Shown: positions 1,003 to 30,930 of the stretch, piece after piece | Position numbering within the stretch: the first letter of the stretch is position 1 | Layout: each line of letters opens with the position of its first letter | Virus record (IMG/VR): IMGVR_UViG_3300037042_002855 | Location: 1-37,777 of that record | Reading direction: 5' to 3' (one strand) | DNA: 37,777 bases | Source of the DNA: a virus | The notes under the pieces: generated by a model | Told to the model about the DNA's origin: nothing | What the model saw: only the letters and a program-made list of their open reading frames with translations | Databases searched by the model: none | Position numbers and translations under genes: made by a program

Positions 1003-1170
1003 GGTGTTAGACCCTTCAAATTATAGGTCTCTTCCAACATTTCAACTTGTAAGGAATACTTACAAGTTGGTGTTAGACCCTTCAAATTATAGGTCTCTTC
1101 CAACCAAGGAAATTACGACAAGGCAACCGATTTGGGTGTTAGACCCTTCAAATTATAGGTCTCTTCCAAC
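1003..1170 (-). CRISPR. Mini CRISPR-like array: 3 repeats, 2 spacers
   Basis: Three identical 36-base repeats lie at 1003-1038, 1069-1104 and 1135-1170, separated by two unrelated 30-base spacers (1039-1068 and 1105-1134), a strict 66-base period. On the minus strand each repeat starts GTTGGAAGAGACC, has TTTGAAGGGTCT near its 3' side and ends AACACC. An inner AGACC/GGTCT pair can form a stem. From memory, 36-base repeats starting GTTG, with TTTG-AGGGT near the 3' side and 30-base spacers, are typical of type VI-B (Cas13b) arrays, but those end ACAAC and this one ends ACACC. No cas gene is in the window. The 1135-1170 repeat also encodes the C-terminal part of the 1113-1412 gene, so the array is probably transcribed with smpB and that gene. 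A gene-tail duplication is the main alternative. Confidence 0.6.
1043..1069. repeat. Perfect 11-bp inverted repeat inside spacer 1
   Basis: CAACTTGTAAG (1043-1053) and CTTACAAGTTG (1059-1069) are exact reverse complements around a 5-base loop, GAATA. The hairpin fills almost all of spacer 1 and takes in the first base of the next repeat. As RNA it would fold strongly on either strand. It could be a captured terminator or promoter dyad, or a structural element of the array transcript. Confidence 0.75.
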
Positions 1171-1412
1171 CAGTCTCTTATAACTCCCCGTACTTGTTGG
1201 TAATTCATACCAAAAATGGATTCTAAAAATGACCAAATTTCATAGTAATTTATGTAACCGTATCCATTTTTTTTATCCTGATAATAATAAAATAATGGTA
1301 ATCTATCTTCATTAACATAACATGTTTTATTATCCATAACGATTGGTTTTAAATTCCCAAAGTTATTATTGAGCCATGTTAAAGCGACCTTATCTAATTT
1401 ATTTTCAATCAT
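1113..1412 (-). CDS. Unknown 99-residue protein whose tail is encoded by a CRISPR-like repeat
   Basis: A compact protein with a beta-type middle (YFNEDRLPLFYYYQD-like hydrophobics, GYGYINYYEIW) followed by helices (FLESIFGMNYQQVRGVIRDW). Residues 81-92, LEETYNLKGLTP, are read directly from the 1135-1170 repeat, and the last residues KSVALS plus the TAA stop come from spacer 2. The C-terminal stretch reads as a natural continuation of the preceding helix, which suggests the repeat sequence may have begun as coding sequence. It follows smpB by 45 bases with no promoter seen, so the two are likely co-transcribed. I do not recognise the family with certainty. Confidence 0.65.
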   Translation of the reverse strand: MIENKLDKVALTWLNNNFGNLKPIVMDNKTCYVNEDRLPLFYYYQDKKNGYGYINYYEIWSFLESIFGMNYQQVRGVIRDWLEETYNLKGLTPKSVALS

Positions 1413-1457: not shown

Positions 1458-1883
1458 TTATATAGATTGTTTGGATTCCCTATAAATATCCCTCTCTTTA
1501 ATAGTATTTCTTTTATCCCAAAGTTTTTTACCTTTAGCTAACACAATATTAACCTTAAGTAACCCTCTATCATTCTCATATAATACATGAGGAATGATTG
1601 TATAACCCTTAACCAACTCTGATTCAAGTTTTCTTAATTGTTTTTTCTTCAATAACAGTTTTTTATCGGTACCAATATTATCATTCCCAATTCCTTGGAT
1701 GAGGATTCCTTTCATAAACAACTCCCCATTATTAAAATAACAGAATGAGTCAGTCATAGAAATTTTTCCTTCTCGGATTCTCTTCACCTCAACACCCGTT
1801 AATTTAATACCCGCCGATAATGTTTCCTCAATAAAGTACTCAAACTTAACTTTTCTATTCTCAATACGAACTTTTATCTTCAT
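1458..1883 (-). CDS. smpB: SsrA-binding protein SmpB
   Basis: SmpB binds tmRNA and carries it to stalled ribosomes for trans-translation. The 141-residue product has the family hallmarks in order: an N-terminal NRK..FEYFIEETLSAGI strand, the LTGVEVKRIREGKISM core, GTDKKLLLKKKQLRKLE, the KGYTIIPHVLY strand, and the C-terminal KVNIVLAKGKKLWDKR with the helical tail TIKERDIYRE that enters the ribosome. Length and order match bacterial SmpB. I chose the ATG at 1881-1883 because the family starts just before the NRK strand and a TACCTTTG element lies directly upstream. No tmRNA gene is visible in the window, so it would act on host tmRNA or on one elsewhere in the phage. Confidence 0.9.
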   Translation of the reverse strand: MKIKVRIENRKVKFEYFIEETLSAGIKLTGVEVKRIREGKISMTDSFCYFNNGELFMKGILIQGIGNDNIGTDKKLLLKKKQLRKLESELVKGYTIIPHVLYENDRGLLKVNIVLAKGKKLWDKRNTIKERDIYRESKQSI

Positions 1884-1888
1884 AATCA

Positions 1889-1896
1889 CAAAGGTA
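1889..1896 (-). promoter_or_regulatory. Possible host-type -7 element before smpB
   Basis: TACCTTTG on the minus strand matches the Bacteroidota -7 box TAnnTTTG. No TTTG sits at the ideal upstream spacing; the nearest ones give spacers of 11 or 24 bases. Transcription from here would start at or very near the smpB ATG, giving a leaderless or nearly leaderless message. A weak inverted repeat (1912-1918 with 1939-1945) lies just upstream; otherwise I see nothing in 1911-2050. Confidence 0.35.
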
Positions 1897-2053
1897 TATA
1901 TAAAAAACAAAAAACCCTAACAAATTCTTACATTTATCAGGGTTTAATATTAACCAACTAAGAAAGGGATTGTTGGGGCTATTTAGGTTATAAATATAAC
2001 AAACTTTTCAAAAAGAAATATAGTATTTAAAGTTTTATTATAAAAACATAATA

Positions 2054-2064: not shown

Positions 2065-2406
2065 ATGATATTAAAAATCAACGATAACAAATTTAAAGTA
2101 AAGGTTATGATGAGTCAGAAAGATACTCAAAAGGGTATGATGGGTCGTGATTTTAATTCCAACTTTAACGGTATGTTGTTCCTAATGGATAAAGGTTCTC
2201 ATGGTTTTTGGATGAAGGATTGTATCATCCCATTGGATATTATCTTCATTGACGGTAATACAATAACTAAAATACATCATAGTTGTCCTCCATGTAAATC
2301 GGAAGACTGTCCTAGTTATGTCGGAACAGGAGATACTATTTTAGAACTTAGAGGCGGTACCTGCAGTGAATTGGGTATTGAATCGGGGGATATTATCCGT
2401 TATTAA
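2065..2406 (+). CDS. DUF192 family protein
   Basis: The 113-residue product matches the small DUF192 family along its whole length: QKGMMGRDF near residues 22-30, the GMLFLMDKGSHGFWMKDC core, IPLDIIFIDGNTI, a cysteine-rich SCPPCKSEDCP segment and the C-terminal LELRGGTCSELGIESGDII. Family members are often secreted or periplasmic, but this one has no signal peptide. The molecular function of DUF192 is unsettled. It is an isolated plus-strand gene whose last 14 bases overlap, tail to tail, the end of the DHH phosphoesterase gene. Confidence 0.85.
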   Translation: MILKINDNKFKVKVMMSQKDTQKGMMGRDFNSNFNGMLFLMDKGSHGFWMKDCIIPLDIIFIDGNTITKIHHSCPPCKSEDCPSYVGTGDTILELRGGTCSELGIESGDIIRY

Positions 2407-3799
2407 TCTTACTTTGTAAAACTCTTACAAATTCATTCTGAATCATTTTTGTGAATTTAACATATGGCGAGTCCTCACTTTCAGAATCGTATTTATAAGC
2501 TCCTGATGGTGGTCTTTTTGACCTTCCAAGATAACTTAAACCCGAAATGTTAGTGATACATTTATGACCCCCACTGTTAGCCTGAATCAAATCCCAAGCA
2601 TTAATTGTTATCTTATCTAACATTAATCTATGTTCTTCAGGTAATTCTGTGAATGGTATTTCCATCATTTCCCCAATATGTGTTAATGTTTCTCTACCGT
2701 TGTCAATTGTTTTGTACTTGTTACCATATAACGCAACAAAGTCTTTAAAAGTAAAACCAACAGAATCTGGTCCAAAACCTTTTGACCTTTCCGATATCCA
2801 CTTAATTGTTGATAATGGGATTTCTTTCTCTTTTAAACTACCTTCCCATTTAGAAAGTACTTCTTGAGCAATCTCCCCTAAGTTAACCCCTTTTAATTCT
2901 CTTTCTTTCTTATAAGGATTACAAGACGCTTGTACCAAACCTAACGGCCAAGCAATAACAATAAAGTCCGCCTCAGGATTATTTTTGAATGGTGTATATC
3001 TGTCATAAGAACCCGGCTTCATCATATTACCACCACCGTATTGAACAATGATATTTCCCTCAACTTTAACATTGGGATTGGTTTTCATTTGATTGATATA
3101 GGTTTCTTTATTCTTTTGTAATTCAGGAGCTTTAGCATATCCCTTCTCAACCATAATTCTTTTAATGTTTTGTAATATATTCATTAAAGATGGTGAACAT
3201 TTTAATACAAGTTCTTCTAAGAACCCTGTTTTGTTTTTAAAGGCCAATAACAATTTATTTGCAACCAAACCTAAAGCCATTTTGTTTTTGGCCAAAGACG
3301 AATCTTTATCTAACTTAAATAAGTAATTAATAACTTGGTCAACAGAAATATCATTCATCGCAAAGTTTGCAGAGTCTACTGTTGAAATTAGTAAGATATC
3401 ACTACTTGGGAATATTTCTCTTGGTGATACCACTTGAGAGATTGTCTCTACATTGGACCTTGAGTGCCTAAATGACACTGATTTTGTGTCCTCAGCTCCC
3501 GCTTGTCTATCATGGTGGTCAGTATGAATAACAAACATTGGTTTACCGTGAGCAAAATCAACAAGGACCGGCATTGTATCTCCTTGAGCGTCATTCTTTT
3601 TAACGGAAAATTCTTTATCCCCATATTGGATGACATGGGCATCAACGACTTTAATCCCGTTGTCCTCAAGATATTTTTTCATCGCAATTGCGGTAGTAAC
3701 ACCATCTAAATCTTGGTGGAAATAAATTTCCGCTTTAAGATATCTTTTAGCTAGTTGATTAATATCTCTTAACCCACTTTCGTTGAGTAATTTTCTCAT
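2393..3799 (-). CDS. DHH-family phosphoesterase (RecJ/NrnA-like)
   Basis: A 468-residue protein with the metal-binding motifs of DHH phosphoesterases: HQDLDG (28-33, the usual HxDxDG), VDFAHG (80-85), TDHHD (93-97, the name-giving DHH) and a C-terminal GGHK (410-413) where DHHA-type substrate-binding domains carry GGH. Such enzymes hydrolyse single-stranded DNA, short RNA or cyclic dinucleotides. The sequence does not decide between a RecJ-like exonuclease, an oligoribonuclease and a signalling-nucleotide phosphodiesterase. A role against host cyclic-nucleotide signalling is possible but unproven. The gene starts one base after the 3801-4931 gene ends, so the two are one transcription unit. 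Confidence 0.8.
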   Translation of the reverse strand: MRKLLNESGLRDINQLAKRYLKAEIYFHQDLDGVTTAIAMKKYLEDNGIKVVDAHVIQYGDKEFSVKKNDAQGDTMPVLVDFAHGKPMFVIHTDHHDRQAGAEDTKSVSFRHSRSNVETISQVVSPREIFPSSDILLISTVDSANFAMNDISVDQVINYLFKLDKDSSLAKNKMALGLVANKLLLAFKNKTGFLEELVLKCSPSLMNILQNIKRIMVEKGYAKAPELQKNKETYINQMKTNPNVKVEGNIIVQYGGGNMMKPGSYDRYTPFKNNPEADFIVIAWPLGLVQASCNPYKKERELKGVNLGEIAQEVLSKWEGSLKEKEIPLSTIKWISERSKGFGPDSVGFTFKDFVALYGNKYKTIDNGRETLTHIGEMMEIPFTELPEEHRLMLDKITINAWDLIQANSGGHKCITNISGLSYLGRSKRPPSGAYKYDSESEDSPYVKFTKMIQNEFVRVLQSKINNG

Positions 3800-6126: not shown

Positions 6127-6154
6127 ATAAAAAAAGGGGTTAATTAAACCCCTT
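6127..6154 (-). terminator. Strong intrinsic terminator after the methyltransferase gene
   Basis: On the minus strand AAGGGGTT (6154-6147) pairs perfectly with AACCCCTT (6141-6134) around a 5-base loop, followed by a run of T. The stem takes in the stop region of the methyltransferase gene (stop at 6144-6146). This is a textbook hairpin with a T-tract. Confidence 0.85.
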
Positions 6155-7016
6155 CTTCAAAAACTAATTTATTTTGTCTCTTTTCATCAACAAATGCTTG
6201 TATTCGTTTACGAGATATTTCACAATAATCAGGACTTAATTCAATCCCAATCCACCGTCTATCCAATATCTCAGCAGCCACACATGAAGTTCCACTTCCG
6301 TTGAATGGGTCAAGAACTATATCATTCTTATAAGACAATATCTTAATCGCCCTTGTGGGAATATCCATTGAGAACGTAGCCTTTGTTAAAGATTTGGTGT
6401 CGGCAAAATATTTCCATTGTCCAAACACTAATTCCATGAACTCTTTCTTATCCATATCGTCATAAACAACTTTTTTCTTAGTCGTACCATCTTCTTGAGG
6501 AATTTCAGTTACAACACCTGTCCATTGTGGCTCACCTTTAACAGTCTTAATGTGTTTATGTTTATATGCCAGTATCACACATTCCTTTGGGTTATAAATA
6601 TAAGGTCCAGATGGACTCATCCACGAACCCCAGGCAGTTGTTTTACTCCTATGTGGACTGTCTTCCTCAAGGTCAACGATACCGAAGAACTTATAACCAA
6701 TTCTTTTCATAACTTGATAGACTTCAGAACAAAAGAAAATTCTACCACCTTTATCTTGTCTATTTATTTCGTAGGGGAGATTTAACGCAATTCTACCATC
6801 GTCTTTCAATAACAGATACGCTTCGGTTAACCATTGTTTAGTAAATTTTAGATATTCATCAAAATATACATCATCATTATGAACATCATAATTAATCCCA
6901 ACACCGTAAGGACAACTCGTCACAATTAAATCAATTGAATTGATTGGCATATCAGCCATAACATCAATACAATCACCATTAATTATCGTACCTATAATAT
7001 CTTCTAAATTCCTCAT
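6144..7016 (-). CDS. DNA methyltransferase, beta class (N4-cytosine/N6-adenine)
   Basis: This 290-residue S-adenosylmethionine-dependent enzyme has the beta-class order, catalytic motif first. Motif IV reads TSCPYG at about residues 32-37, where SPPY or DPPY is usual, preceded by the strand SIDLIVTS. Motif I, DPFNGSGT, lies near residue 236, followed by WIGIELSPDYC. It is probably a lone modification enzyme that protects phage DNA or changes host gene control, since no restriction gene is adjacent. The cysteine in place of the first catalytic proline is unusual, and target base and sequence cannot be read from the protein. It begins 3 bases after the DUF3310 gene and ends at a strong terminator, so it closes an operon. 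Confidence 0.85.
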   Translation of the reverse strand: MRNLEDIIGTIINGDCIDVMADMPINSIDLIVTSCPYGVGINYDVHNDDVYFDEYLKFTKQWLTEAYLLLKDDGRIALNLPYEINRQDKGGRIFFCSEVYQVMKRIGYKFFGIVDLEEDSPHRSKTTAWGSWMSPSGPYIYNPKECVILAYKHKHIKTVKGEPQWTGVVTEIPQEDGTTKKKVVYDDMDKKEFMELVFGQWKYFADTKSLTKATFSMDIPTRAIKILSYKNDIVLDPFNGSGTSCVAAEILDRRWIGIELSPDYCEISRKRIQAFVDEKRQNKLVFEEGV

Positions 7017-7801: not shown

Positions 7802-8923
7802 TTAATCTTCTTTATATTCGTTTAATAGTTGTTCACTAGTCAGAATTCCGTTGTATTTTTTTGCTATCTCATCAAAGTTTTTCATACTAACATTGGTATA
7901 CATGTTGTGGACAGTCTCGGCTAGTTCATCCGCCATGTTAATTGTTTCAGAAATAACTTTGACTATTTCATAAGGGTTCGCATTTGATGCTGGTCGTCTA
8001 TCCTCAATATGCCCTTTCCACTCTTTAGCCGTTGACACAGGAACTCGAATAGACGCTCCTCGGTCACTAACACCCCAACTGAACTTATCAATTGATTGTG
8101 TCTCGTGTCTCCCTGTAAGTCTTAGTTCATTATCCGAACCATATACCTCAATATGCTGGCGTCTTCTTGACTCTAACGAATTGAATAGTGCGGTGAAGTA
8201 TTTTACCCCTCCTTTATTTCTCATTTTATCTGTTGAGAAATTTGTGTGTAACCCAGAACCATTCCATTCACCATAGACAAGTGGTTTAGGGTGATATTCA
8301 ATATAATATCCATATTTTTCAGATAACTTTTCCATGAAATATCTTGACATCCAAAGGTCATCTCCCGCCTTTAATTTACCTTTAGAGAATACTTGATACT
8401 CCCATTGGCCTAAAGCCACCTCAGCGTTAACTCCTGTTATGTCAATACCCATTGTTAAACAGAAATCCATATGTTCCTCAACAATATCTCTGCCAACAAC
8501 ATTAGACCCCACACCACAATAATATTTTCCTTGTCCTTCAATTGACCCTTCACTATGACCTAATATTGGTTTGTTTTTACCTTCACGGATAAAAAACTCT
8601 TGTTCAAATCCGAACCACATATCTTCATCTTCTTCGCCTAACTTGGCTCTTTGATTTGTTTCATGAGGAGTCTTCCCATCGGGATTCATAACCTCACATA
8701 AAACGTAAATTTTAGAAGTGTCAATCAGTGAACAATAAACTCTTACAGGTTTTAAAATACAATCAGAATTATCCCCTTCCGCCTGTAATGTTGACGACCC
8801 GTCAAAATTCCATTCAGGAATACCGTCTAATTTATAGATTTGTTCTTTAACAACTTTAATTTTACTTCTTAAATTTGGTTCAGGTGTATACCCGTCAACC
8901 CATATGTACTCGATTCTTGTCAT
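7802..8923 (-). CDS. glnA: Glutamine synthetase (eukaryote-like GSII type)
   Basis: This enzyme would make glutamine from glutamate, ammonia and ATP in the host cytoplasm. The 373-residue sequence carries every landmark in order: the beta-grasp part with EWNFDGSST (37-45), GFEQE metal ligands (105-109), YYCGVG (134-139), NAEVALGQWEYQ (166-177), NGSGLHTNFS (221-230), RLTGRHET (268-275), RGASIR (288-293) and EDRRPASNANPY (307-318). The compact length and motif spelling favour the GSII group over the roughly 470-residue bacterial GSI. No key residue is lost, so activity is expected. It overlaps the upstream gene by ATGA, which suggests translational coupling. It would serve as an auxiliary metabolic gene, feeding glutamine to nucleotide synthesis during infection. 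Confidence 0.95.
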   Translation of the reverse strand: MTRIEYIWVDGYTPEPNLRSKIKVVKEQIYKLDGIPEWNFDGSSTLQAEGDNSDCILKPVRVYCSLIDTSKIYVLCEVMNPDGKTPHETNQRAKLGEEDEDMWFGFEQEFFIREGKNKPILGHSEGSIEGQGKYYCGVGSNVVGRDIVEEHMDFCLTMGIDITGVNAEVALGQWEYQVFSKGKLKAGDDLWMSRYFMEKLSEKYGYYIEYHPKPLVYGEWNGSGLHTNFSTDKMRNKGGVKYFTALFNSLESRRRQHIEVYGSDNELRLTGRHETQSIDKFSWGVSDRGASIRVPVSTAKEWKGHIEDRRPASNANPYEIVKVISETINMADELAETVHNMYTNVSMKNFDEIAKKYNGILTSEQLLNEYKED

Positions 8924-11571: not shown

Positions 11572-12159
11572 ATGTCATCAGGAATTTATATTATTAAAAA
11601 TACTCAAAATAATAAAGTATATGTTGGGAGCTCCGTTAATGTTAAAAACAGAGAATATAAACATTTTTGGATGTTAGGTCGGGGTGTTCATGATAATCCA
11701 CATTTACAAAAATCATACAACAAATACGGTAAATCTTCATTTATTTTTGAGGTAGTGGAAATTTGTGACGAGTCTAAGTTAATTGATAAAGAAAATTATT
11801 ATATATCTAATTATAAATCCAACGTTATATCTTTTGGGTATAACTTAGCAACTGTAAATGAGTTTAGACGAAATACCTTCAATGATGAGGTTAAAGTTAA
11901 ACTATCAAAATATAATTTAATTAAGAATAAAAATTTTTTTAAGTTTTCATTGACAAATATTGATACTATGGAGATATTTATATTTGAGAGTTTAGTTGAT
12001 GGTGCCAATTACCTTATTAAAAACGGATTTACAAAGGGTAGTCCTCGAAATATTAGGATGAAAATATCAAGTTGTTTACGTGGAGTTAAATTAAACAACG
12101 GGTATCAAGGGTCAATCAGAAAAACTTGTTATAAACATATTTTTAAAATAATAAACTAA
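11572..12159 (+). CDS. GIY-YIG endonuclease, free-standing homing type
   Basis: A 195-residue enzyme of the GIY-YIG nuclease family. The catalytic domain occupies about residues 1-90, with GIYIIKN (4-10), KVYVGSS (15-21), the helix VKNREYKHFW and a late glutamate in DKENYYI. The C-terminal half, with FESLVDGANYLIKNG and ISSCLRGVKLNNGY, resembles the NUMOD-type DNA-binding helices of phage homing endonucleases. It is not inside an intron or inside another gene here. It begins a plus-strand block in a mostly minus-strand region, a usual place for mobile endonucleases. It probably cuts a related phage genome lacking the gene. Confidence 0.85.
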   Translation: MSSGIYIIKNTQNNKVYVGSSVNVKNREYKHFWMLGRGVHDNPHLQKSYNKYGKSSFIFEVVEICDESKLIDKENYYISNYKSNVISFGYNLATVNEFRRNTFNDEVKVKLSKYNLIKNKNFFKFSLTNIDTMEIFIFESLVDGANYLIKNGFTKGSPRNIRMKISSCLRGVKLNNGYQGSIRKTCYKHIFKIIN

Positions 12160-20346: not shown

Positions 20347-20490
20347 ATGGAAAATAAAGAAGATTGTAAGACATGTAAAAAAGGATTATCAGGTACACAT
20401 TGGTCAATGATTATAGTATCATTCTATATTCTATTCGCAGCAATTTATGGTACAGTTAAATTAATCGGTGAGATTATGTCTAATTTTTAG
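20347..20490 (+). CDS. Small single-span membrane protein (47 residues)
   Basis: A 47-codon frame starting MENKEDCKTCKKGLSG with a CxxC pair, then one hydrophobic segment (SMIIVSFYILFAAIYGTVKL) long enough to cross the membrane. The N-terminal CKTC could bind a metal or form a disulfide. It ends tail to tail with DnaJ, overlapping by 11 bases. The function is unknown; small phage membrane proteins of this shape include holin-like and superinfection-exclusion proteins. Confidence 0.6.
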   Translation: MENKEDCKTCKKGLSGTHWSMIIVSFYILFAAIYGTVKLIGEIMSNF

Positions 20491-21406
20491 ACCGTTTAAA
20501 CTTTACGAATAACTTAACAAACAAATCCCCAACACCATTACTTTTAAACCCTTTTGATTTAACTCTTAAGGGTTTTGACGTATCAAAATCTTCGGGTATC
20601 TTAATCGATATGTTTCCCGATGGATGAGGTATTTCTAAATTGTCCTTGGTTAAATCCTCCAAAGTTAAAAACGCGTTATACACCAAATCATTTTCACTCT
20701 TCTCAAAGTTACTTTCGGGGACCATTTTAACTCGGATAACTAAATTACCATAAACACCATTATTGTAGTCTCCCTTACCTTGCATTTTGAAAAATTGCCC
20801 GTCATCAACTCCGTGAGGTAATTTTATTTTAATAATTTCTATGTCGGGCATTGTCGCGCTACCGTTACAAACTCCACATCTTGTTTTAAACACCTGTCCT
20901 TCACCTCTACAGTCATTACATGGTTGTCTGAACACTTGGGTAAACAAACCTGTTCCCACCGTCACAGTAGTATATCCACCCCCATTACACTTAACACATG
21001 TTTTCTTATCGCCACCTGTACCATTACAAGTAGTGCAACCGTGTTTTCGACTATATGTAATGGTCTTATCGGACCCATTAAATGATTCTAATGTACCGAT
21101 AGTTATATCGATAACACTATCAGGTGAGGTTCTTCTTCTTGGTTGGTATCCAGAATTAAAGAAATCTTCAAAAGGGTTTCCACCGCCAAAACCTTCGAAT
21201 GGGTTACTTTTTTGGTTATCGTATTGTCTTCTCTTATTCTCATCGCCTAACGTGTTATACGCTTCGGATATTTTTTTAAAATTTTCTTCAGAACCTCCTT
21301 TATCAGGATGGTGTATTTTAGACAATTCTTTATAGACTTTTTTAATTTCGTCTTGTGTTGCATTTTCATCGACACCCAACACTTGATAAAAATTTTCTGT
21401 ACTCAT
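20480..21406 (-). CDS. dnaJ: DnaJ (Hsp40) co-chaperone
   Basis: A complete type I DnaJ of 308 residues, shorter than the roughly 375 usual in bacteria. The J domain spans about 1-65 with the HPD motif (33-35). A glycine/phenylalanine-rich linker follows (GFGGGNPFEDFFNSG). The zinc domain has four CxxC motifs at 124-127, 137-140, 163-166 and 177-180. The C-terminal substrate-binding strands include KLPHGVDDGQFFKMQGKGD. It would stimulate host DnaK, since no DnaK or GrpE gene is in the window, and may help phage protein folding or replication complexes. Shortening is mostly in the C-terminal part, which may lack part of the dimerisation domain. Confidence 0.95.
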   Translation of the reverse strand: MSTENFYQVLGVDENATQDEIKKVYKELSKIHHPDKGGSEENFKKISEAYNTLGDENKRRQYDNQKSNPFEGFGGGNPFEDFFNSGYQPRRRTSPDSVIDITIGTLESFNGSDKTITYSRKHGCTTCNGTGGDKKTCVKCNGGGYTTVTVGTGLFTQVFRQPCNDCRGEGQVFKTRCGVCNGSATMPDIEIIKIKLPHGVDDGQFFKMQGKGDYNNGVYGNLVIRVKMVPESNFEKSENDLVYNAFLTLEDLTKDNLEIPHPSGNISIKIPEDFDTSKPLRVKSKGFKSNGVGDLFVKLFVKFKRSKN

Positions 21407-23802: not shown

Positions 23803-25449
23803 TTACTGAGTTTTTCTATCGTACGAAATTAATGATTTCATTTTCTCAAACTCTTCATTTAATTTCTTATCTGTTTTTGGTTCAGTTGATTCGGTTTTAA
23901 TATTTAACCCTTTCCCTGACTCTTGACCTGGTTTATCGCTAACAATAGGTTGAGGTGATTTATTATACGCCGCTCTCTTAGCTTTAGCAAATTTATTTTC
24001 TTTTCGTTTTTTATTAAGTTTTGCTCCTAATTCAGTTTTTTCAGCATTTATCCATTCAGGATTGTTTCCTGTTCTTGATGAACCTTCAATATTGTCTTTC
24101 ATCCAATCTTCATTAGGTTGTATTTCATCGTAATCAAGATTTTCCATACCGGGTTTCATGTAATCATCCAAAAATTCTTCCCCGTCTTTAGAAACTTCGT
24201 AAGCCATTTTTTTCATTTTTGCTAATCCACCATTATTTTTTGGAAAATGTTTAGGGTTTGTTTCGTAATCACCTTTAGAACCATCCTTTAAGTAATCTTT
24301 CATTTTCTTAGCAACAGATTTGATATAATCATCATTTTCTTTACCAGAGGTTTTAACCGCTCTTTTATATGTTGATAGTCCTTTAGGTTCAGTTAAATTT
24401 TTAATGTTAGATTTTACTTTTTCTTTATCCTCTAACACAATTTTTTCAATTAAATCAATCATTTCTGATTCAGATAACTTAAGTATTGATTTAGATTTTT
24501 TCTTACTTTCATTACTTTCACCAAACGCTTTATCTAAAGCCCAAGTAGCAACCGATGGTGCCGCCGCAACTGCCATATCCGCGACTAAACCTTGCCATTG
24601 TTCATCCGTTTCTCCACCTTTTCTTAACATTTTAAAATCTTCCGCATCAATCTTATTGTTTTTGTTCTTATCGATTCTTTTTTGATTACCGACTAATTTT
24701 TCATTCATATTCATCTCCGTTTCAGTTGATTTAGATTTTTTTCTTAACATTCTAAAATCTTCCGCATCAATCTTGTTGTTTTTATTCTTATCAATTCTTT
24801 TTTGATTACCGACTAATTTTTCATTCATTGAGAATTTAAACTTGTCTAACCCTCCTTTATCGCTTCCAAAATTTTGTTTATACCAAATACAAGTTTCTTG
24901 ACTATAGTTTTCACTATCTTTGTTACAAGCCTCTTTAGTCTTACCTAATGGGTCACTATTATCTTCTTGGTCGTTCATATATTCTTCTTCTTCCTCTTCC
25001 CCTTCAAAATCTACATCGTCTTCTTCCTGAACATAATCATACTCATTTGAATTATCTAAGTTGTCAACATCGTTGATGCTTTCACCCATATATGATTTAC
25101 CACACTCCATACACTCTCCTTCATACATACCTCCACCACATTCACAAACTTCAGATTCTTCATCAATTTCGTCCCACTTATTTTTATCTTCAGAACCCAA
25201 TCCACTGAATTTGAAACGATGACGAGTTGTGCGGCCTCTAACAGGTTTATTTAATAAGTCTTCAATTTCTTCATCAGACATTTTTGATAAGTTAAGTTTA
25301 CCAAACGTAGGATGGTCATCATCCATACCACCTAACTCATTTACGTTAGATTTAATTTTAGAAACTAAACTATCGGCTCTTTCTTCTAAAGTTTCGTTGA
25401 TAATTTTACTTACTAAGTTGTTGATATATGTACTGTTAATTTTTTTCAT
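23803..25449 (-). CDS. Virion-type protein with zinc knuckle and duplicated EF-hand
   Basis: A 548-residue charged protein with a candidate capsid-targeting start (NNLVSKIINETLEE). C102, C104, C113 and C116 form a zinc-knuckle-like cluster (CECGGGMYEGECMECG). An acidic stretch follows (about 138-167). Two identical EF-hand-like loops, DKNKNNKIDAEDF, start at residues 220 and 260, each preceded by NEKLVGNQKRI. A second LTES-like segment, LKLSESEMIDLIEKIVLED (323-341), lies internally, as if two such proteins had been joined. The C-terminal 200 residues are lysine-rich. The octamer lies 14 bases upstream. The likely place is inside the virion, with possible calcium binding; function is unproven. 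Confidence 0.6.
   Translation of the reverse strand: MKKINSTYINNLVSKIINETLEERADSLVSKIKSNVNELGGMDDDHPTFGKLNLSKMSDEEIEDLLNKPVRGRTTRHRFKFSGLGSEDKNKWDEIDEESEVCECGGGMYEGECMECGKSYMGESINDVDNLDNSNEYDYVQEEDDVDFEGEEEEEEYMNDQEDNSDPLGKTKEACNKDSENYSQETCIWYKQNFGSDKGGLDKFKFSMNEKLVGNQKRIDKNKNNKIDAEDFRMLRKKSKSTETEMNMNEKLVGNQKRIDKNKNNKIDAEDFKMLRKGGETDEQWQGLVADMAVAAAPSVATWALDKAFGESNESKKKSKSILKLSESEMIDLIEKIVLEDKEKVKSNIKNLTEPKGLSTYKRAVKTSGKENDDYIKSVAKKMKDYLKDGSKGDYETNPKHFPKNNGGLAKMKKMAYEVSKDGEEFLDDYMKPGMENLDYDEIQPNEDWMKDNIEGSSRTGNNPEWINAEKTELGAKLNKKRKENKFAKAKRAAYNKSPQPIVSDKPGQESGKGLNIKTESTEPKTDKKLNEEFEKMKSLISYDRKTQ
24621..24828 (-). repeat. Direct repeat within the EF-hand gene (120-bp period)
   Basis: Bases 24621-24708 and 24741-24828 are near-identical 88-base copies (I count four mismatches) with a 120-base period. 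They encode the two EF-hand units 40 residues apart. The mismatches appear to be mostly synonymous, so the protein copies are conserved. Confidence 0.85.
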
Positions 25450-28876: not shown

Positions 28877-29743
28877 TTAACTTGATTTACTATAGGTCAA
28901 TCTTCTAACCCCATCATTAGTTGTTGTTGTTGTAACAATCTGTATTAAGTTCTCTTGGATATCAAAGTATTTAGTTGTTGTTGTTGTAACAATCTGTATT
29001 AAGTTCTCTTGGATGTCAAAGTATCGTGATGATTCATATTCTACCATCTCTTCTATCTCAGGACCTTCATAATTGTTCACCAAATCAGTTATTTGAGTCT
29101 CTAATTTAATCCCCGGAATGTCTAAAGTTTCGTCTAACACGTCTAAAGTTTCTTCAGGTTTAGACATTACTTCAACTTGGTCGGTCACTTGGTGGGTGCT
29201 TGGTGGTTGCTTGGTCGGTGCTTGGTCGGTAGTTAACTCTGTGACAATATCTTCTAATAGTTCTTTAGTAGAGTGAGGTTTGTTATCCTCATACTTAATA
29301 AAAAAGTGTAACGATGTTAATGATATGATAGGTAATAATCCTCCTTCCAAAAATGCTAACCATCTTTTAAGTGAAATTACATCAGTAATGTCTGTACCAA
29401 ACGCCTCCCAAACAGGTGAGGTTAGTTCCACCCAAGATTTAAATAAATCTCCATTAGCATCAATCTCTTTATAAGAGAAGAATATGTTTCCAATCATTTG
29501 GATAAATGTGACTAACCCAAACATAAACCATACTCCTCCTTTAATTTTGTTAGTTGCAGCAATCAATGCGGTCATTGCACCAATCTCAATTGCGATAGAT
29601 AGGTAAATCGCCCAACTTATCGGATTAGCAAGATTATACCAAGAAACAACGTGTGAGATTGAGATAACCGCAACTAAAAGTATCGGGACTAAAAACATGG
29701 TTCTATTTGGATTTAATTTAACCCATTCCCAAATTTTCTTCAT
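28877..29743 (-). CDS. Multi-span membrane protein with a recently duplicated tail
   Basis: A 288-residue protein with four likely transmembrane segments in the first 160 residues (TMFLVPILLVAVISISHVV, SWAIYLSIAIEIGAMTALIA, WFMFGLVTFIQMIGNIFF and GGLLPIISLTSLHFFI). An acidic cytoplasmic-type tail follows. The tail holds two copies of an 18-residue unit containing YFDIQENLIQIVTTTTT, encoded by the tandem DNA repeat at 28917-29024. It lies between the amidase gene and the anchored coiled-coil gene, so a holin-like or lysis-regulating role is possible, though it is large for a holin. It overlaps the upstream 29740-30069 gene by ATGA. Confidence 0.6.
   Translation of the reverse strand: MKKIWEWVKLNPNRTMFLVPILLVAVISISHVVSWYNLANPISWAIYLSIAIEIGAMTALIAATNKIKGGVWFMFGLVTFIQMIGNIFFSYKEIDANGDLFKSWVELTSPVWEAFGTDITDVISLKRWLAFLEGGLLPIISLTSLHFFIKYEDNKPHSTKELLEDIVTELTTDQAPTKQPPSTHQVTDQVEVMSKPEETLDVLDETLDIPGIKLETQITDLVNNYEGPEIEEMVEYESSRYFDIQENLIQIVTTTTTKYFDIQENLIQIVTTTTTNDGVRRLTYSKSS
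28917..29024 (-). repeat. Tandem 54-bp repeat, two copies
   Basis: Bases 28917-28970 and 28971-29024 are the same 54-base unit with a single difference that I can see. Each unit contains a TTG trinucleotide run. The repeat is in frame and encodes the duplicated 18-residue tail of the membrane protein. Confidence 0.9.
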
Positions 29744-30129: not shown

Positions 30130-30930
30130 TTACATATAGTCGAATAATACCGAACTGTCGTTCCTCAATTTTCGTAAGGCTTTTTCTTTTATTTGTCTCA
30201 CTCTTTCTTTCGTAAGACTGAAATCTCCACCAATATCCTCCAAAGTTCTTGGTAACCCAGAGATACCAAAGTAATCCTCAATAATTACTTTTTCTCGGTC
30301 ATCTAAAGAATTTAATAACACCATTAACTTAGACTTTAATAAATCCTTACTGTTGAATACTTCGTCAGGCATATCCGCGTCTTCATTTTTAATAATATCA
30401 AATAACGTGTCCCCTTCTTCATTAATACTCATATCAAGGTCAATCATTGACGGTAGTCTTTGGAATTTAGGGTCTAACGTCCCATCATTAGATTCTATCG
30501 CCTTTTTAGCTCTGTGTAAGTCTTGGACAACATTGACAGGAAGTCGAATGGTTCTCGCGTTATCATTCAATGATTGTAAGATTGATTGTTTAACCCACCA
30601 AACTGCATATGATATAAAACGTAAATCTTTATGCCAATCAAAATTCTTAATCGCCTTCATTAACCCAAAATTTCCTTCAGCAATTAAATCAGGGAAATCT
30701 AATCCTTGGTTTTGGTACTGTTTAGCGACCGTAATAACAAATCGCAAATTACCCTCAAGTAATTCTTTATGAACTTTGTCTCTTTGAGCGTCCGTCAATG
30801 TTCCAGACTTCATCATCTCCGCCAACTCTTTTTCTCGTTGTGGGGTCATAACTTTTATCCTACGAATGTCCTTAAGATACTGTTGAATTTTTTCTTGATT
30901 AATTGGAATTCCTGTGTTTTTGTTTTTCAT
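30130..30930 (-). CDS. RNA polymerase sigma factor, RpoD-like
   Basis: A 266-residue sigma-70 family protein close in length to the short Bacteroidota RpoD. Region 1.2 (IQQYLKDIRRIKVMTPQREK) and region 2 (GNLRFVITVAKQYQNQGLDF, ISYAVWWVKQSILQSLNDNA) include the core-binding and -10 recognition helices, and TIRLP begins region 3. Region 4 has a helix-turn-helix (TLEDIGGDFSLTKERVRQIK). Unlike T4 gp55 it keeps a full set of regions and could recognise both promoter boxes. It likely redirects host RNA polymerase to phage promoters, possibly those with the TATTTAT octamer. It lies 2 bases after the 30933-31481 gene and ends at a terminator. Confidence 0.95.
   Translation of the reverse strand: MKNKNTGIPINQEKIQQYLKDIRRIKVMTPQREKELAEMMKSGTLTDAQRDKVHKELLEGNLRFVITVAKQYQNQGLDFPDLIAEGNFGLMKAIKNFDWHKDLRFISYAVWWVKQSILQSLNDNARTIRLPVNVVQDLHRAKKAIESNDGTLDPKFQRLPSMIDLDMSINEEGDTLFDIIKNEDADMPDEVFNSKDLLKSKLMVLLNSLDDREKVIIEDYFGISGLPRTLEDIGGDFSLTKERVRQIKEKALRKLRNDSSVLFDYM

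Follow-up and report, generated by a model that had tools for sequence, protein, structure and literature searches.

A phage-encoded SmpB and its probable phage tmRNA partner

Results and Discussion

A complete SmpB is encoded by a virus of Bacteroidota-type hosts, the DNA of which was analysed here as a stretch of 37.8 kb (the window), and this protein probably partners a phage tmRNA that lies elsewhere in the same genome of ~320 kb, adding a phage-specific tag. Relatives of the virus carry a matching tmRNA with a long tag; thus, the smpB gene of the window is probably half of a virus-run system and not a lone borrowed gene. The positions of the features discussed are given in Table 1.

Table 1. 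Position and strand of the features described in the window.
Feature	Position	Strand	Remarks
smpB coding sequence	1458..1883	-	ATG at 1883 to stop at 1458, 141 aa; based on family scores, structure matches and purifying selection
TACCTTTG, Bacteroidota-type -7 promoter element (TAnnTTTG)	1889..1896	-	5 nt upstream of the smpB ATG
Hairpin AACCCT...AGGGTT followed by a T-run	1901..1944	-	intrinsic-terminator-like, by inspection
DUF192 gene	2065..2406	+	conserved divergent neighbour upstream of smpB
468-aa DHH-like phosphoesterase-type gene	2393..3799	-	weak Pfam match; conserved syntenic neighbour
N6/N4 DNA methyltransferase	6144..7016	-	within the conserved block upstream of smpB
CRISPR-like mini-array	1003..1172	-	three 36-nt repeats (GTTGGAAGAGACCTATAATTTGAAGGGTCTAACACC) with 30-nt unique spacers; overlaps the 3' end of ORF 1113-1412
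Glutamine synthetase	7802..8923	-	N- and C-terminal domains both present
Probable GIY-YIG homing-type nuclease	11572..12159	+	by eye from the translation; opposite strand to most genes
DnaJ-like co-chaperone	20480..21406	-	CxxCxG zinc region, read from the translation by eye
In-frame tandem or near-tandem duplication	24619..24828		90 nt, 96% identical
In-frame tandem or near-tandem duplication	28917..29024		54 nt, 98% identical
Sigma-70 family factor	30130..30930	-	regions 1.2, 2 and 4

The window encodes an SmpB of the accepted family

The first-pass annotation of this DNA had called a phage-encoded SmpB, and family models, solved structures and the predicted fold agree with it. The protein scored 138.2 bits against Pfam PF01668 (E 2.4e-40, cut-off 27) and exceeded the NCBIfam equivalogs NF003843 (138.1, cut-off 130) and TIGR00086 (136.1, cut-off 119.1), the curated SmpB cut-offs being passed across its full length; within the phage families it belongs to PHROG 6791. 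Its sequence matched solved SmpB structures (best E 2.2e-29). The AlphaFold2 model (pLDDT 76, pTM 0.63) has a predicted SmpB fold, and all 18 Foldseek matches below E 0.001, with E values from 3.6e-10 to 5.6e-5, were SmpB or SmpB-tmRNA/ribosome entries. As part of the explanation that includes a phage tmRNA partner, we regard it as likely that the product is a functional SmpB of phage lineage.

The tmRNA locus of a collinear relative lies outside the window

No tmRNA or tRNA was found in the window by ARAGORN, by a search with RF00023 or by a search with all Rfam families at E<=1. The genes of the window map in order onto G020, a phage contig of 322 kb, with window positions 1-37 kb corresponding to G020 from 7 kb through the contig ends to 296 kb. 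The window is therefore ~12% of a G020-type genome, and the source virus would have ~320 kb. In G020 smpB is found at 6.8 kb and the tmRNA at 100.6-100.9 kb, ~94 kb apart, and in another lineage contigs of 318 and 322 kb hold both genes within ~1 kb. The contigs of the window's own clade (up to 92 kb) jointly cover the part of G020 that runs from approximately 181 kb across its ends to ~57 kb; the tmRNA locus is outside this span, and no tmRNA was seen on these contigs, which stop short of the expected position. Since they miss the locus, the lack of a tmRNA in view is uninformative about the genome, and a true absence of tmRNA from the phage is not supported.

The first-pass annotation had described an SmpB without a tmRNA gene. 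This description holds for the window, but it is an artefact of seeing ~12% of a genome whose collinear relative has a tmRNA. The search for ssrA that it had proposed for the rest of the genome found the gene in that relative and, at the same syntenic locus, in other lineages, although on the contigs of the window's own clade the locus is not reached. We infer that this clade also has a phage tmRNA.

An attempt was made to link the window clade to a tmRNA-bearing contig by overlap. The contigs G086, G053 and G078 represent one phage, the nearest to the window clade among those with a tmRNA, whose tmRNA has the tag GNVINKLSAVGLVRTEEVAVA. They share with a window-clade contig one gene of 415 aa at 91% identity, but two other genes at only 84% and 55%, and no contig end is common to both; thus, the link is suggestive only, and this phage may belong to a sister clade.

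Some relatives of near-genome length, such as G080 (294 kb) and G136/G137 (291 kb), have a tmRNA without a detectable smpB. The presence of smpB thus varies with the lineage, and a tmRNA does not require it as an obligate partner in the same genome; such phages presumably use the SmpB of the host. The fact that only two of 50 tmRNA contigs contain smpB was dropped as a sign of smpB absence, being mostly explained by fragments.

It must also be considered that the phage SmpB may work with the tmRNA of the host, in a phage that has none of its own, either by raising the SmpB dosage or by delivering host tmRNA to ribosomes stalled while host mRNA is degraded. The window-clade contigs with no tmRNA in view and the conservation of the ribosome-contacting residues of the protein are consistent with this. 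So is the tmRNA match obtained in all 18 Bacteroidota genomes tested, in 17 of them above the cut-off. However, the collinear relative and sister lineages encode a tmRNA at a conserved locus which the window-clade contigs do not cover, and we consider use of the host tmRNA unlikely, though it is the most credible of the alternatives. The first-pass annotation had also suggested competition with host SmpB, for which we obtained no specific support.

Phage tmRNAs of the relatives encode a conserved long tag

By a scan for shared tag DNA, tmRNAs with a conserved tag of 21-22 aa were identified at 67 viral loci, and 26 distinct tags are represented among them. The pattern GNV[ILF]NK[LM]...GL[ILV][RK]...[VA]A fits 65 of the 67, and homologous long tags are present in the tmRNAs of two related lineages (GNVINKLSAVGLIRTEENISVA and GNVLNKMALVGLVRQDELVNVA). 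The Bacteroidota tmRNAs examined have tags of ~9 aa of the type G[EN]xxYA[LM]AA, and the phage pattern was found in none of 395 Bacteroidota genomes.

The phage tmRNA is a one-piece molecule. Of 61 complete phage tmRNAs, 35 were resolved by a simple parser, and all 35 have an acceptor stem with seven of seven pairs and the G3.U alanine signal; many others likewise begin with GGGGGT but were left unscored. The tmRNAs of the relatives, in which this was assessed rather than in the window, thus appear to fit alanine charging with an open tag frame. The C-terminal -VA of the tag appears to resemble degradable tags, and for this reason we make no claim that the phage tag blocks proteolysis. In many of these tmRNAs (for example L263, L185 and L271) the mature 5' end is immediately preceded by a motif similar to GTTCTTTRAMAT, which resembles the boxA of rRNA leaders.

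SmpB tail and central loop

The first-pass annotation had regarded the copy as complete including the tail that enters the ribosome. Indeed, the segment GKKLWDKR contains the GKK and DKR motifs with an aromatic residue at the position of E. coli His136, and 16 residues follow DKR. All 18 members of the window clade have Trp at this position, where Tyr is found in 76 of 80 bacterial SmpBs. The tail has 16 residues in the clade (17 in three members), while bacterial tails mostly have 17-21. Tagging in E. coli is unaffected by the removal of the last five SmpB residues, which likewise leaves 16 (PMC8363625); therefore, judged by length, the tail of the window protein would be just at the minimum and no shorter.

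Contact with the tRNA-like domain of tmRNA is attributed to the central loop of SmpB (PMC4131195). In the window clade this loop is shortened but not absent: its segment has 19 residues in all 18 clade members and 24-25 in the 80 bacterial SmpBs, being five residues shorter than in every one of them, which is a point against pairing with a phage tmRNA. A full loop is typical and not defining, as accepted SmpBs of hemoplasmas and Carsonella do not have it (PMC4131195). The Bacteroidota proteins share with the window protein the family scores, the OB-type fold, the GKK...DKR motif with an aromatic residue before DKR and the helical tail, and differ from it in the loop, in having Tyr in place of Trp and in overall identity, which is ~45-52% at best.

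The short loop could suggest a role independent of tmRNA or inhibitory, in which the protein would titrate host tmRNA or ribosomes, or would act alone at the decoding centre, and there is a precedent in reduced bacteria, where SmpB can persist after tmRNA loss (PMC4131195). However, the shortest-loop clade (17 residues) nevertheless carries a tmRNA, so the shortened loop does not track tmRNA loss and its reading as a hemoplasma-like mark of such loss is ruled out. The retention of GKK, DKR, the aromatic residue and a tail of a length that still supports tagging in E. coli also speaks against a role of this kind, which we consider improbable.

smpB as a resident gene of the phage lineage

We fetched 58 viral loci encoding SmpB relatives 40-97% identical to the window protein. 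Most of them share a block with the DNA methyltransferase, a 376-aa protein, the DHH-like protein, DUF192 on the opposite strand, smpB and a conserved downstream set, and the same neighbours accompany smpB across many viral contigs in which it is 46-97% identical. Within the window clade, dN/dS values against the window smpB were 0.04-0.24, denoting purifying selection. The closest bacterial SmpBs found were mostly from Bacteroidota and did not exceed ~52% identity.

Nearly all the relatives compared, even lineages with ~50% identity, have a TAnnTTTG element 4-6 nt before the smpB ATG; one relative shows the variant TATCTTTA. The position of the element in the window implies that the smpB transcript would be nearly leaderless. 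The hairpin upstream of this promoter is kept in most window-clade relatives and in some others, and by inspection it would separate smpB from upstream transcription. The sigma-70 family factor encoded in the window is relevant to the Bacteroidota-type promoters seen.

The conserved synteny, the purifying selection, the Bacteroidota-type promoter of its own and the lack of a bacterial homologue above ~52% together indicate that smpB is a long-resident phage gene. Host contamination, which the first-pass annotation had named as a possible refutation, or a recently acquired non-functional passenger, is extremely improbable given these same observations, with the gene order repeated across many viral contigs and the window collinear with a 322-kb phage contig. 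The phylogeny against host SmpB which had also been suggested placed the viral sequences on one side of the tree, separate from the bacterial ones, but with weak support (64/79), and a single origin is not established. The related viral sequences are contigs from metagenomes and have no cultivated relatives; the nearest named phages, according to the DHH-like neighbour, are uncultured phages of 635-642 kb with 40-44% identity.

Proposed role in infection and the Clp neighbourhood

According to the reading that we favour, the phage SmpB would pair with a phage tmRNA encoded outside the window contig, and during infection the two together would enter ribosomes that have stalled at truncated mRNA. 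The ribosomes would be freed for phage translation, and the stalled product would receive the phage-specific tag of ~21-22 aa in place of the host tag of 9 aa. We infer both that the phage SmpB and tmRNA work together and what effect the new tag has. The phage-specific tags fit the suggestion of the first-pass annotation that tmRNA tagging may be redirected.

Where its neighbours are visible, the phage tmRNA is mostly found at one syntenic place beside a gene for a ClpC/ClpA-like AAA+ unfoldase, in a shared gene order that includes proteins of 353 aa and 274 aa, the unfoldase and further genes. In the AAA+ protein the two AAA domains are both present, and there is a GIGF motif at what we take to be the site where ClpC-type proteins bind ClpP. 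A ClpP is encoded in six of 14 large relatives and is not found in G020. These matches scored 218-237 bits with the ClpP model, below its cut-off of 361, versus 58-68 bits with head-protease models, which rules out their being capsid proteases.

The Clp link to phage trans-translation is suggestive only. As a further and weaker step, tagged products might be sent to the phage's own ClpC-like and ClpP proteins. It is a tentative and rather doubtful proposal that Bacteroidota phages of ~300 kb, as a large and uncultivated family, operate a trans-translation system of their own, in which phage SmpB and a phage tmRNA add a phage-specific tag of 21-22 aa that is read by phage ClpC-like/ClpP and not by the host route; if so, stalled products and ribosomes would both be under phage control.

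Comparison with known phage systems

That huge phages encode SmpB and tmRNA was reported in 2020 (Al-Shayeb et al., PMC7162821), and the complete Lak phages Lak-A2 and Lak-B5 carry both. The SmpBs of huge and Lak phages are only 41-43% identical to that of the window, and the tmRNA tag of Lak-A2 is short (DDEIDFRMAA) in contrast to the tag of 21-22 aa in the window-related phages. The remark in the first-pass annotation that SmpB is rarely noted in phages is right only in part: 66 of 50,697 phage records gave matches, some apparently in bacterial or prophage DNA, and the huge-phage genes had been reported.

In the portions consulted of PMC4131195 and PMC9004378, phage tmRNAs are described for Bxz1-like mycobacteriophages, phage G and the methylophage Melnitz, which share a phage-encoded trans-translation RNA with the window-related phages, and these portions describe no phage SmpB for them. 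According to the same portions the Melnitz tmRNA is two-piece, unlike that of the window-related phages, which is one-piece with a long tag and a ClpC-like neighbour. Our limited literature search found no report of a long conserved tag, or of an SmpB-tmRNA-Clp set in one phage family, and the phage-specific long tag with its Clp neighbourhood appears to be new.

These data bear on the reasons why phages have tmRNA and SmpB, for which ribosome recycling, sensing of the host state and recycling of host proteins have been proposed. In a family that has its own SmpB and its own tmRNA at a conserved locus, together with nearby Clp proteins and a long tag that differs from the host's, the fate of tagged stalled proteins and a preference of SmpB for the phage tmRNA can be tested directly.

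Other features of the window

The CRISPR-like mini-array had no cas genes seen beside it, and no protospacer was found for one of its spacers. Its first repeat encodes the C-terminal end (LEETYNLKGLTP) of a small gene. In relatives the repeat occurs in two to four copies and the spacers differ, and diverged repeats of their own are found in paralogues of the small gene. The window also encodes a glutamine synthetase, a probable homing-type nuclease and a DnaJ-like co-chaperone, and two of the phage genes contain internal in-frame duplications (Table 1).
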